A DNA stretch of 64,000 nucleotides. Origin: Leisingera daeponensis. GTDB lineage: Bacteria > Pseudomonadota > Alphaproteobacteria > Rhodobacterales > Rhodobacteraceae. Of the stretch, positions 36,309 to 40,448 are shown piece by piece. The position numbers and the translations under genes were made by a program. The number at the start of each line of letters is the position of its first letter. Position 1 is the stretch's first letter. A model generated the notes under the pieces. That model searched no databases, was not told the DNA's origin, and worked only from the letters and a program-made list of their open reading frames with translations. Location: positions 124,001-188,000 of the forward strand of contig NZ_JAHVJA010000006.1 of NCBI RefSeq assembly GCF_019801465.1, in the 5' to 3' direction.

Positions 36309-36532
36309 GCCCGCAGCGGTTTTCAGGCGTCCCCTGCCGCGCAGGCCTTTATCTTGGCGGCCCTTGATCTTGGCAGCAATGGGCGGTAGGTGATCCGGAA
36401 CTATTGAGGCGGGCGTGCAGCGATTCGGTTTGCACGCCGCTTTTTGTTGGAGAGCGCAGCGTTTCGGCTGCAGCGGGATGATCAGGCAGCGGCGCGGCAA
36501 AGGCCCGCCCGGCAGAACAAGGACAACGGTTC

Positions 36533-37066
36533 ATGGCGAAACGGTGGTATTCGGTCAGCGTTCTTTCGAACTTCGAAAAGAAAATCGCAGAGCAGATCCG
36601 CACCTCGGTCGCAGAACAGGGCCTTGAGGACGAGATCGACGAGGTTCTGGTCCCCACCGAAGAGGTGATCGAGATCCGCCGCGGCAAGAAGGTCTCGACC
36701 GAACGCCGCTTCATGCCCGGCTACGTGCTGGTGCACATGGAAATGTCGGACCGCGGCTATCACCTGATCTCCTCGATCAACCGGGTCACCGGCTTCCTCG
36801 GCCCGCAGGGGCGCCCGATGCCGATGCGCGACGCCGAGGTGCAGGGCATCCTGGGCCGCGTCGAGGAAGGCGTCGAGGCACCGCGCACCCTGATCACCTT
36901 CGAGGTGGGCGAGAAGGTCAAAGTGAACGACGGCCCGTTCGAGGATTTCGACGGCATGGTCGAAGAAGTCGACGACGACAACCAGAAGCTCAAGGTCACC
37001 GTGTCGATCTTCGGCCGCGAGACCCCGGTGGAGCTGGACTTCACCCAGGTCACCAAGCAGGGGTGA
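36533..37066 (+). CDS. nusG: Transcription termination/antitermination factor NusG
   Basis: A 177-residue factor that binds RNA polymerase, suppresses pausing and couples to Rho and S10. The NGN domain begins [20 protein letters not shown] and includes [11 protein letters not shown] and [13 protein letters not shown]. The C-terminal KOW domain has [20 protein letters not shown] strong terminator follows 24 bases after the stop, so secE-nusG is a separate unit from rplK. Confidence 0.97.
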
Positions 37067-37090
37067 TTGATCCCACAGTGGAATTTGAGG

Positions 37091-37120
37091 CGCCGCGTTG
37101 GGTTCAACGCGGCGTTTTTT
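37091..37120 (+). terminator. Strong terminator after nusG
   Basis: Ten-pair stem CGCCGCGTTG (37091-37100) with its complement at 37105-37114, loop GGTT, then six T residues. It separates nusG from the AT-richer inserted gene and from rplK. Confidence 0.93.
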
Positions 37121-37189
37121 GTTTGGGTTCGTAAAAAGTTATCTGTGCTACTCATGCTCTGGCAGCATTTTTGACGTTTCATTCCGGGG

Positions 37190-38347
37190 GTGACAATTTT
37201 GAAAGATTTTTCTTTGGAACAGCTCCGCGAGAGCGTTACGCGTGCAATGGCTCCCCTGAGAGTACCTCGATCTGGCCCGCATCTCCCGCGAGAGTGGCGC
37301 GTGCATAGGGGGTTGCCGCACAGTGACTACTATAGAGTGTTTATGCTGTTGGTGGACCTGCTGGAATTTGAGTACTCAGGTCCCTTCGAGAAGCTCGCTT
37401 ACTCCATACCTGTGGAGTACAAAGGGCAGATTTACAGGGTAAACTACGAAAAATTCGGAATGCGGATCATTGTTCCAGAAAATGGGGACCCGCAAGGCCT
37501 TTATCGACAGCTCGAAAAAGGAATGAAAGCTGCTAAGCGGTACTTTTTGTGGAGGGCTGACCAGGCAGCAGGCACAGACAATCTCAATCTAGTCTCAAAG
37601 TGTCATTCGCTCTGGGAGAAATACCTCTTCCTTAGGGGGCGATCCGAAAATCTCCGCGATCAAGCTGAAGCTTCGAAGGGCGAGGTTCATCACGAAAAAG
37701 GCAGTGGTGATCATGAGGGGAGTATATGGGCCACATTTAGCTTTCCCAGCTTTGAATACAAACAGCAAGCTGACTGGCTCCACGAGGCAGCGGTGGATGC
37801 ATTTTTTGCTTGGTGTGAGCAGGCTTTGGTTCATGTGGCCGTGCTGCTGGGGAAGCTGAAGAATGGTCGGGAAATTACAGACCTCCTCAATGGGAACTTT
37901 GGGGACAAATGCCGATTGGTTTTTAACTATGCTGATCCCGCGGACAAGCGTGCTTGCGACGACATACTCGCTTTACGCACCGAGATAAGAAACTATGTTG
38001 CTCATGGCTCGTTTGGAAAGGATGGCTCCACTTTCCAGTTTCATTCCAAAGTCGGCGCGGTTCCACTAAAGATTTTGGACGCTCCAAAATCTGGTAGCTT
38101 CGCATTTGTAACCGAAAGTGATTACGATCAGCGGCGTGATTTTGAAAGGATCGAACGTTTTTTGAGTCAGCTTTGGTCCGGGAAGAGAGAGCCAGCGAAG
38201 CTATACATTGAAACCAACCTTCCGTGCATCCTGACGTACGTGACTAACGGCAAGTACCAACGTGCCATGCGTACCGTAGAAGATATGAAGGCTTTTCTAG
38301 AGGGTCTGACGCGAATGTGGGATGATGCAGCGAACATGGATTGGTGA
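37190..38347 (+). CDS. HEPN-motif protein of unknown function, AT-richer insert between nusG and rplK
   Basis: A 385-residue soluble protein starting with GTG at 37190; a TTG three codons later is an alternative. I do not recognise a named family. Residues ~215-285 form helices ending in LRTEIRNYVAHGSFG. R267-x4-H272 matches the R-x(4-6)-H catalytic motif of HEPN RNases and the common R-N-x-x-x-H-G context. An upstream amphipathic helix (HEAAVDAFFAWCEQALVHVA) fits the first HEPN helix. The base composition is visibly AT-richer than all neighbours and codons are atypical, suggesting transfer. It is inserted between the nusG terminator and the rplK promoter, without disturbing either. Confidence 0.7.
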   Translation: MTILKDFSLEQLRESVTRAMAPLRVPRSGPHLPREWRVHRGLPHSDYYRVFMLLVDLLEFEYSGPFEKLAYSIPVEYKGQIYRVNYEKFGMRIIVPENGDPQGLYRQLEKGMKAAKRYFLWRADQAAGTDNLNLVSKCHSLWEKYLFLRGRSENLRDQAEASKGEVHHEKGSGDHEGSIWATFSFPSFEYKQQADWLHEAAVDAFFAWCEQALVHVAVLLGKLKNGREITDLLNGNFGDKCRLVFNYADPADKRACDDILALRTEIRNYVAHGSFGKDGSTFQFHSKVGAVPLKILDAPKSGSFAFVTESDYDQRRDFERIERFLSQLWSGKREPAKLYIETNLPCILTYVTNGKYQRAMRTVEDMKAFLEGLTRMWDDAANMDW

Positions 38348-38373
38348 CTGATCGTGCGTAGCTCAGCTACCAC

Positions 38374-38402
38374 TTGCCAACTCCCGCATTCCCCTGTAAA
38401 CG
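38374..38402 (+). promoter_or_regulatory. Candidate promoter of rplK-rplA
   Basis: TTGCCA (38374-38379), a 17-base spacer, then TAAACG (38397-38402) followed by CGCCC. The -10 and GC-rich discriminator strongly resemble those of the rpsL promoter (TATACG-CGCGCC). The leader is about 115 bases. Confidence 0.6.
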
Positions 38403-38522
38403 CGCCCAATCGTCTTCGGGCGAGATTCTCTCGTGGGAGATCAAGGGATCGCGATCCTGAAATCCGACCACGCAACACTCTCCGGGCGGAACGCGTTCCG
38501 TCCTCGTTGAAAGGAAAACCAA

Positions 38523-38948
38523 ATGGCTAAGAAGCTTGTTGGTTCGATGAAGCTGCAGGTTCCTGCAGGTCAGGCAAACCCCTCTCCGCCCGTCGGCCCG
38601 GCCCTGGGTCAGCGCGGCATCAACATCATGGAATTCTGCAAGGCGTTCAACGCCAAGACCGCAGACATGGAACCCGGTGCGCCGTGCCCGACCGTGATCA
38701 CCTACTATCAGGACAAGTCCTTCACCATGGACATCAAGACGCCACCCGCGTCTTACTACCTGAAGAAGGCGGCCAAGGTGAAATCCGGCGCGAACAACCC
38801 GTCGCGCGAAACCGTCGGCACCGTGACCGTGGCCCAGGTGAAAGAGATCGCCGAAGCCAAGATGAAAGATCTGAACGCCAACGACATCGACGCGGCAATG
38901 CAGATCATCCTGGGCTCTGCCCGCTCCATGGGCATCGAGGTGAAGTAA
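38523..38948 (+). CDS. rplK: 50S ribosomal protein L11
   Basis: A 141-residue component of the GTPase-associated centre of the 50S subunit, which also mediates RelA activation. The N-terminal domain has [20 protein letters not shown] and the C-terminal RNA-binding domain has [20 protein letters not shown] and ARSMGIEVK. It is separated from rplA by a single base, so the two are co-translated. L11 is followed by L1 as usual. Confidence 0.98.
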
Positions 38949-38949
38949 G

Positions 38950-39648
38950 ATGGCAAAGCTCGGTAAACGCACCCGCGCCGCGCGCGAAGCTTTCGCTGGC
39001 AAGGAAAACCTGTCCGTGGAAGAAGCTGTTGCCCTGATCAAGGCCAACGCCAACGCCAAGTTCGACGAGACCGTCGAGATCGCCATGAACCTGGGCGTCG
39101 ACACCCGCCACGCTGACCAGATGGTCCGCGGCGTGGTCGGCCTGCCGAACGGTACCGGCAAGGACATGCGCGTAGCCGTCTTCGCCCGCGGCCCGAAAGC
39201 GGACGAAGCCACCGCGGCTGGCGCAGACATCGTCGGCGCCGAAGACCTGATGGAAGCGATCCAGGGCGGCAAGATCGACTTTGACCGCTGCATCGCAACC
39301 CCGGACATGATGCCGGTCGTCGGCCGTCTGGGCAAAATCCTGGGCCCGCGCAACCTGATGCCGAACCCGAAAGTCGGCACCGTGACCATGGACGTGAAAG
39401 CGGCCGTGGAAGCAGCCAAGGGCGGCGAAGTGCAGTTCAAGGCGGAAAAAGGCGGCGTTGTGCATGCCGGCGTCGGCAAAGCGTCCTTCGACGAAGCCAA
39501 GCTGGTCGAAAACGTCCGTGCCTTCGTGTCGGCCGTGGCCAAAGCCAAGCCGGCCGGCGCAAAAGGCGCCTACATGAAAAAGATCAACCTGTCCTCGACC
39601 ATGGGTCCGGGCATCACGGTTGATGTGGACAACGCTGTCACCGAGTAA
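38950..39648 (+). CDS. rplA: 50S ribosomal protein L1
   Basis: A 232-residue protein of the L1 stalk that helps tRNA leave the E site; L1 commonly represses its own rplK-rplA mRNA. Blocks are [40 protein letters not shown] (the family signature) and [12 protein letters not shown] at the end. It starts one base after the rplK stop. A terminator follows, separating it from rplJ. Confidence 0.98.
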
Positions 39649-39731: not shown

Positions 39732-40448
39732 TCAGCGCAACCCGCGGCGGCAGGGGCCGTAGTGCTGCTCCAGCAGCAGCCGCAGCAGCCGGGGCTTGCC
39801 TGCGGCGGCCAGCTGCACGGTGCGGGCCAGCAGCCCCTGCGCCTTCAGCCCGGCGACCAGATTGTGGCCGGTGCCCTCCAGAATGTAATGGTGGATGCTG
39901 CGGCCGGCCGGGAAGCGGCGCCAATGGATCTCCTCCTCCGGCGCATCTCCGTGAAAGATGAAGTGCCCGCATCGCTCCGGGTCGAGGGAGCCAACCGTCT
40001 CGAACCGGTAGGGCGGGAAGCGGCGGCGCCAGTACTGCCAGCGGGTTTCCTCCGGCACGTGCTCCGGGTGCATGGAGAATTGCGGCGAGAAGGCGATGGC
40101 GCGGTCGATCCGGGTGAGCTGCGGCAGCACCAGTGCCATGAAGCCGCCCATGCTGTTGCCCAGGGTGACCGTCTCGGTGATCGAGAACTGCACCCGGATG
40201 CGTTCGATCTCCTGGACGATGAGGGCGGTGAGGTCCGGGTCGTTCATCCAGCTGCGGCGCTTTTCCGCGACCATCAGGATGTGGTTGCGTCCGCCGTCCG
40301 AGGCGGTGCCGGGGAACTCGAAGGGCGGCATCTCATGCCGCTTGGTGCCGACGCCGCTGAGGCAGACGAACAGCCTGCTGCCGCTGCCGTGCTGATGGGC
40401 AATGCTGTGATCCCCGTTGCGGGCGATGAGGTCGGTGGTAAGCTGCAT
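39732..40448 (-). CDS. Alpha/beta hydrolase-like protein inside the ribosomal region
   Basis: A 238-residue soluble protein. The nucleophile elbow TLGNSMGGFMALVL (Ser in G-N-S-M-G) and a late His in EGTGHNLVAG fit the serine-hydrolase fold; LFVCLSGVGTKRHEMPPFEF is at the N-terminus. The acid residue is uncertain (an Asp in HGDAPEEE is possible). Substrate unknown. It is on the strand opposite to rplA and rplJ, which are usually adjacent, so it interrupts the beta operon. GC content is like its neighbours. Confidence 0.78.
   Translation of the reverse strand: MQLTTDLIARNGDHSIAHQHGSGSRLFVCLSGVGTKRHEMPPFEFPGTASDGGRNHILMVAEKRRSWMNDPDLTALIVQEIERIRVQFSITETVTLGNSMGGFMALVLPQLTRIDRAIAFSPQFSMHPEHVPEETRWQYWRRRFPPYRFETVGSLDPERCGHFIFHGDAPEEEIHWRRFPAGRSIHHYILEGTGHNLVAGLKAQGLLARTVQLAAAGKPRLLRLLLEQHYGPCRRGLR

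Follow-up and report, generated by a model that had tools for sequence, protein, structure and literature searches.

A putative stand-alone HEPN ribonuclease gene in an accessory slot between nusG and rplK of Leisingera daeponensis

Between nusG and rplK of Leisingera daeponensis lies an open reading frame of low G+C content, and the question addressed here is what its product might do and how it came to occupy this position. The DNA analyzed, hereafter referred to as the window, is a stretch of 64,000 nucleotides. The reading frame was confirmed in it and ends with a TGA codon at 38345-38347. Its start codon is ambiguous, either GTG 37190 or TTG 37199. We think the latter more likely: the closest relative, L002 from Pseudorhodobacter, starts at the corresponding position, and the spacing to a GGGGG sequence is better. 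The G+C content of the gene is 0.498 with a GC3 of 0.534; the GC3 values of the flanking nusG and rplK are 0.876 and 0.810, respectively. When the 64 kb were scanned in 1158-bp segments with a step of 50, only 0.24% reached a G+C content as low as that of the gene, and the minimum, 0.496 from position 37101, overlaps it. An earlier note on this DNA had described the gene as AT-rich relative to its surroundings, and it is indeed the AT-richest gene-sized stretch of the window, for which the overall G+C content is 0.642. The R267-x4-H272 motif that the note had pointed to is likewise present, with LRTEIRNYVAHG found at those residues (codons 37988-37990 and 38003-38005). The gene occurs as a single copy in its own genome. 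In the neighboring DNA, a 1.7-kb segment is 94.2% identical to a plasmid of Leisingera thetidis, which alone among 329 records reached 90%, in keeping with the genus Leisingera or close kin.

Listed in Table 1 are the features of the region. The distance from the nusG terminator to the GTG codon is 71 bases, and that from the stop codon to the rplK promoter-like sequence is 26 bases. The gene thus sits between terminator and promoter as had been claimed, and both of these flanks are intact. A search for RNA elements in 36500-39000 gave none at an E-value of 0.5.

Table 1. Coordinates of the features in and around the HEPN-motif gene.
Feature	Position	Strand	Remarks
nusG, left flank of the slot	36533..37066	+	177-aa ORF; match in 94 of 101 genomes searched
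Intrinsic terminator after nusG	37087..37118	+	14-pair stem, T tail; -23.3 kcal/mol; same or similar stem in same-genus relatives
HEPN-motif protein	37190..38347	+	ORF; 385 codons
N-terminal part, ~residues 1-184; putative sensor/regulator	37190..37741	+	conserved G64-x2-E67-K68 and K88-x-G90; without family match
Predicted HEPN core, ~residues 185-300	37742..38089	+	F206, E210, K240, R267-N-x3-H272-G, F284-H285, G289; weak profile alignment to HEPN_RiboL-PSP over R-N-x-x-A-H
E210 codon	37817..37819	+	at least 90% conserved
R267-N-Y-V-A-H272-G, putative catalytic motif	37988..38008	+	no variation at R267, N268, H272, G273 among the 12 members
rplK promoter-like sequence TTGCCA-N17-TAAACG, right edge of the slot	38374..38402	+	motif also in 11 of 14 long-interval same-genus relatives
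rplK leader	38403..38522	+	conserved string in all 14 relatives with a long interval, in none of the 3 with a short one
rplK, right flank of the slot	38523..38948	+	141-aa ORF

The surroundings of nusG were compared in 20 genomes of the same genus and in as many again from elsewhere in the family. Both nusG and rplK lie within the stretch in 17 of the 20 same-genus relatives, and 14 of these 17 carry extra DNA between them. The presence/absence comparison suggested in the earlier note thus reveals a recurrent accessory slot in the genus. The interval is 134 bp in three relatives, in which neither a terminator nor a separate rplK leader was found, and 619-4391 bp in the other 14. The long intervals contain, in addition to the leader and promoter motif counted in Table 1, a terminator that was located by script in 13 cases and by eye in the last. 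Their G+C contents range from 0.49 to 0.60 versus the 0.642 of the window. In L069 the contig edge is reached with cargo and the conserved promoter visible. The stretches of L055 and L060 contain different genes and lack rplK; among those of L060 are a recombinase-like and a transposase-like ORF. In the other genera, 15 of the 20 intervals measure 82-252 bp and five measure 753-4246 bp.

The cargo is diverse. When 14 cargo ORFs and the window protein were all compared, only two related pairs emerged, L056/L065 (84% identity) and L064/L067 (73%), and no convincing gene was seen in the intervals of L059 and L072. Ten cargo ORFs were scanned against Pfam, which returned an EamA transporter, an alpha/beta hydrolase, an SH3 protein, an AbiU2-type HEPN protein (HEPN_AbiU2; L058:6749-7378, E-value 3.7e-9), and six ORFs without a match over the cut-off. 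Five of the ten, that of L058 included, were checked against PADLOC and gave no match. Nine of the ten are thus not recognizable defense genes, and since the cargo is mostly of this kind, the nusG-rplK slot is a general accessory space rather than a dedicated defense island, one that has taken in HEPN genes at least twice. A search of the literature on nusG, rplK, and insertion yielded, as judged by titles, no report of such a slot.

Several observations on these loci were made in passing. The ORFs at L056:3285-4664 and L065:5982-7313 represent a cargo family in common of 443-459 residues, and searches of Pfam and PADLOC with the L056 protein gave nothing. In the L064 interval a diverged second nusG C-terminal fragment (48% identity over 60 residues) adjoins an unnamed 212-residue cargo common to L067; this fragment is possibly a trace of the route by which cargo entered. 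A second accessory slot is seen in the rplA-rplJ gap, which was measurable in 16 of the 20 same-genus relatives and ranges in them from 359 to 1705 bp. In the window this gap contains an ORF of 238 residues at 39732-40448 on the minus strand, hydrolase-like by eye (GNSMGG), that is absent from the stretches of 40 relatives, some of which stop short of the gap.

The window protein has no match in Pfam, PADLOC, NCBIfam, PHROGs, or the PDB, in each case up to an E-value of 10, and six other members of its family gave none in PADLOC (version 2.0.0, dating from 2023). The solved structures hold nothing convincing for the family. Whether the gene is universal had been set beforehand as a test, and it is not: no match was found in 147 relatives (one of 148, the window's own genome), and a profile search at the level of the taxonomic family gave none in 247 other genomes (one of 248), which rules out a universal core or ribosomal-operon gene. 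Neither was there a match in 384 other genomes of the class; note that genomes partly recur between the relative, class, and family samples. In the phylum sample two of 397 other genomes match, G561 with one intact copy and two partial copies with stops, and G594 with one copy containing a stop. A wider class search around G561 gave no further genome (one of 78, G561 itself).

The closest relative found, from Pseudorhodobacter aquimaris, is 55% identical and has lost its 3' end at an insertion sequence. Plasmids of Variovorax, an Erythrobacteraceae strain, Mesorhizobium, Rhizobium, and Sinorhizobium carry relatives, the Mesorhizobium copy having a broken N-terminal frame, and a member is also present on a plasmid of the actinobacterium Nocardia. 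A Pseudoalteromonas plasmid gave a short, weak match only (E-value 0.1). In E. coli the gene is carried by 11 of 5426 genomes. Members are present on five viral contigs, although four of six viral-contig scans gave no relative, and three queries of the phage collection gave no match. Several copies are truncated or contain stops, and decay is thus common in the family. The window gene, for its part, is an accessory insertion.

An alignment of 12 members was constructed that includes the Nocardia protein and omits the fragmentary Mesorhizobium sequence, those copies that contain stops, and the near-identical viral-contig copies L015 and L016. Pairwise identities fall as low as 14%, with some pairs at 14-20%. 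The only invariant residues are Lys 68, Arg 267, Asn 268, His 272, Gly 273, and Gly 289, and conserved in at least 90% of the members are Leu 49, Gly 64, Glu 67, Lys 88, Gly 90, Phe 206, Glu 210, Gly 221, Lys 240, Phe 284, His 285, and Pro 292. The earlier note had asked that the arginine and the histidine be conserved in homologues, and both are invariant in all 12 aligned proteins, that of Nocardia included. Among members from plasmids, prophages, and integrated elements alike, R-N-x3-H-G is the most conserved feature. That four of the six invariant positions fall within one RN-x3-HG motif at identities down to 14% strongly indicates that the protein works through this motif. The plain R-x4-H pattern was dropped as evidence, since it occurs in 179 of 320 ORFs (those of at least 150 residues from the window and a portion of the loci retrieved); RN-x3-HG occurs in nine of the 320, seven of which belong to this family.

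A second RN-x3-HG protein, of 343 residues, is encoded at L004:3388-4419 and has a DUF4145 match under the cut-off (E-value 0.0017). Its ORF shares a plasmid region with a HEPN-motif relative and Gabija.

In HEPN RNases, the catalytic arginine is followed by a polar residue (asparagine, aspartate, or histidine) and the histidine by a small residue. All 12 members display the R-x4-6-H arrangement of HEPN superfamily RNases with Arg 267 and His 272, and in all 12 the adjoining positions are Asn 268 and Gly 273. A HEPN_RiboL-PSP profile was built from 13 of 26 matches and compared with the core of the family. The score was 24.1 with the R-N-x-x-A-H motifs in register; none of 100 column shuffles reached this value (maximum 18.1), and the reversed profile scored 13.3. 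The match is weak, with a probability of 9.8% over 34 columns (2.9% when the full-length profile is used), and most of it comes from the motif; the shuffles and the reversed profile served as its controls. An AbiU2 profile of five sequences gave no significant match to the family (score 12.5, E-value 0.39), and a HEPN_Apea comparison set was abandoned because a match in one of 120 genomes was too few for a profile. When the 12 members were scanned in Pfam, only the P2 copy matched a HEPN model, Csx1_HEPN, and did so weakly around the motif (E-value 0.05, 14.4 bits against a curated cut-off of 23 bits); the other 11 matched none up to an E-value of 10, under HMMER filters that drop most weak matches. 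The HEPN assignment is nonetheless very probable, and the family is best read as a new one of a known kind, namely a HEPN RNase. In the literature on HEPN proteins in P2 or prophage defense, as far as the text of the sources was covered, there is no description of the family and none of six member accessions is named; the supplementary tables of the hotspot papers or a 2025 E. coli prophage-defense study cited in PMC13092281 may hold an unnamed entry.

The surroundings of the relatives point to defense. All 11 E. coli copies were examined, and ten are located in P2-like prophages, with the replication endonuclease gene on one side and the portal gene on the other. This is the A-Q site, which is described as an anti-phage defense hotspot (PMC9122126; PMC9519451). 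The second cargo in these ten prophages is a TIR protein in three, a weakly HATPase-like plus STAS-like cassette in five, a DitB-like protein in one, and three unnamed genes in one. A fixed two-gene system with TIR in P2 is ruled out by this variation, and the gene, which stays while its partner changes, is read as one gene, one system. The eleventh copy is not in a P2 prophage but is surrounded by insertion sequences and adjoins type VI secretion genes. Three IMG/VR viral contigs display the P2 layout (its genes in L015 and L016 having been recognized by eye) with TIR, PIN-like, and AAA-like cargo, the last two just under Pfam cut-offs. A fourth viral-contig copy adjoins an integrase gene, and the fifth, L093, is downstream of an AAA_15/AAA_21 ATPase gene with phage-tail-like genes noted by eye. 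On the Erythrobacteraceae plasmid pWH01K the member follows methyltransferase and helicase genes and precedes GajA (E-value 8.8e-238) and GajB (5.3e-207) of Gabija, and in Variovorax an Old-family gene (5.6e-63) comes before the member. In the rhizobia the copies are preceded by a DUF1612/HTH_13 gene close to repABC, a setting that is not known from defense loci, and the Nocardia neighbors that were scanned gave no Pfam match. Such recurrent siting in defense loci, together with the conservation of the motif, lends support to the interpretation in the earlier note of a HEPN protein acting in defense.

Two neighboring ORFs were recorded separately. The DitB-like P2 cargo, L020:7491-9164, encodes 557 residues with a stretch matching at an E-value of 2.5e-10 and has no Pfam match, and L093:3571-4488, just upstream of the member on that contig, has a weak Cthe_2314-like HEPN match (E-value 3.2e-5, under the cut-off).

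On the basis of these comparisons, the window gene probably encodes a stand-alone HEPN ribonuclease whose N-terminal part is of an undescribed type and which serves, as a one-gene effector, to counter phages by abortive infection; we place the probability of this reading at roughly 0.7. The C-terminal half would fold as a dimeric HEPN bundle with Arg 267 and His 272 in the cleft, and the N-terminal part of ~185 residues would hold the RNase off and sense a phage product. Once triggered, the protein would cut RNA, and the ensuing growth arrest or death would stop the phage. This sense-then-cut mechanism is proposed by analogy with Tha. The gene presumably arrived as cargo at its present site between nusG and rplK, where insertions would be tolerated because transcription of nusG stops at a dedicated terminator and that of rplK begins at a separate promoter. 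Counting against a role in defense are the non-defense cargo that hotspots and plasmids also carry, the nine of ten scanned nusG-rplK cargo ORFs that are not recognizable as defense genes, the frequent decay of copies, and the E. coli copy located away from P2.

A HEPN RNase might instead be restrained by a partner, as the toxin of a toxin-antitoxin pair that maintains the element rather than sensing phage directly. HEPN toxins of HEPN-MNT pairs exist (PMC4621449), and the start of the pWH01K member shares 4 bp with a gene whose product has Xre-like HTH and MbcA/ParS-type domains. No partner is kept across the family, however: the bases before and after the window gene leave no room for one, the second cargo in P2 changes while the HEPN-motif gene stays, and the subset of neighbors scanned in Pfam gave no MNT match. 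The 62-residue ORF that precedes ten P2 copies was rejected as an E. coli antitoxin, since it is present in 1088 of 5426 genomes versus the 11 with the HEPN-motif gene. A toxin-antitoxin role is, on balance, unlikely.

We regard as quite unlikely the notion that the gene is foreign DNA carried passively in a permissive slot, functionless in its host and conserved for its function elsewhere. It draws on the unrelated DNA in the slot of 14 of the 17 measurable same-genus relatives, on the truncations or stops in the Pseudorhodobacter, Mesorhizobium, G561, and G594 copies, and on the lack of a plus-strand promoter-like site before the gene in a scan for sigma-70-type sites, whereas the copy in the window is complete, retains all the invariant residues, and lies between intact terminator and promoter flanks. 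HEPN domains without RNase activity are known, and the near-equal conservation of Phe 284, His 285, Gly 289, and Pro 292 after the motif suggests that it may serve another chemistry. Yet a non-catalytic helical protein, such as an RNA- or nucleotide-binding regulator with a structural RN-x3-HG, is very unlikely given the relatives in defense loci and the R-N-x3-H form of the active site in Tha-1 (RNSIMH), where His 270 is required for protection (PMC11087260).

Returning to the one-gene effector, a more speculative extension, possible but in our estimation rather doubtful, is that members of the family are one-protein innate immune sensors in which the N-terminal domain (GxxEK...KFG) would directly recognize a conserved phage product and release the HEPN RNase. 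As part of the same proposal, the nusG-rplK and rplA-rplJ boundaries would be integrase-free docking slots in the genus, their genes swapped by recombination through the near-identical flanking genes. The libraries used miss the family, yet its members are found in Rhodobacterales-like bacteria, in E. coli prophages, and on a plasmid of an actinobacterium, which makes it a candidate one-gene immune system that is ready for testing. The P2 copies in E. coli are accessible, in laboratory strains, to an ordinary plaque assay. The slot itself suggests a search rule, namely to inspect terminator-promoter boundaries between essential genes, where cargo spares the host operon and no integrase betrays it.

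The closest known systems are HEPN proteins of several kinds. With HEPN_RiboL-PSP (PF18735) it has in common the R-N-x-x-A-H motif in register and, by eye, an upstream A-x-x-E helix, but it differs in having no hmmscan match and the low profile probability given above. The Csx1 HEPN domain (PF09455) resembles the motif region of the P2 copy, although under the cut-off and in one of the 12 members, and the family has no CARF-type match in the scans. AbiU2 (PF18734, HEPN) fills the same nusG-rplK slot in L058; it is, however, a separate family, the L058 protein having no BLASTP match to the window protein at an E-value of 0.001. DS-11 of DefensePredictor, a CBS plus HEPN protein compared here by description rather than by sequence, is similarly described as a one-protein HEPN defense with a regulatory part (PMC13092281), but a CBS match is found in none of the 12 members. 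Tha from S. aureus prophages is a HEPN RNase that is switched on by phage tail proteins (PMC11087260). Homology to it was rejected on a best BLASTP E-value of 6.0 against Tha-1 and a profile comparison of 0.11%, and the window family has ~85 further residues past the predicted HEPN core; the family is for this reason filed as Tha-like in layout only, not as Tha. The layout is nevertheless alike: a single prophage-borne protein, an N-terminal part without a named domain, and an R-N-x3-H motif at nearly the same position, Arg 265 and His 270 of 301 residues in Tha (PMC11087260) and Arg 267 and His 272 of 385 in the window protein.
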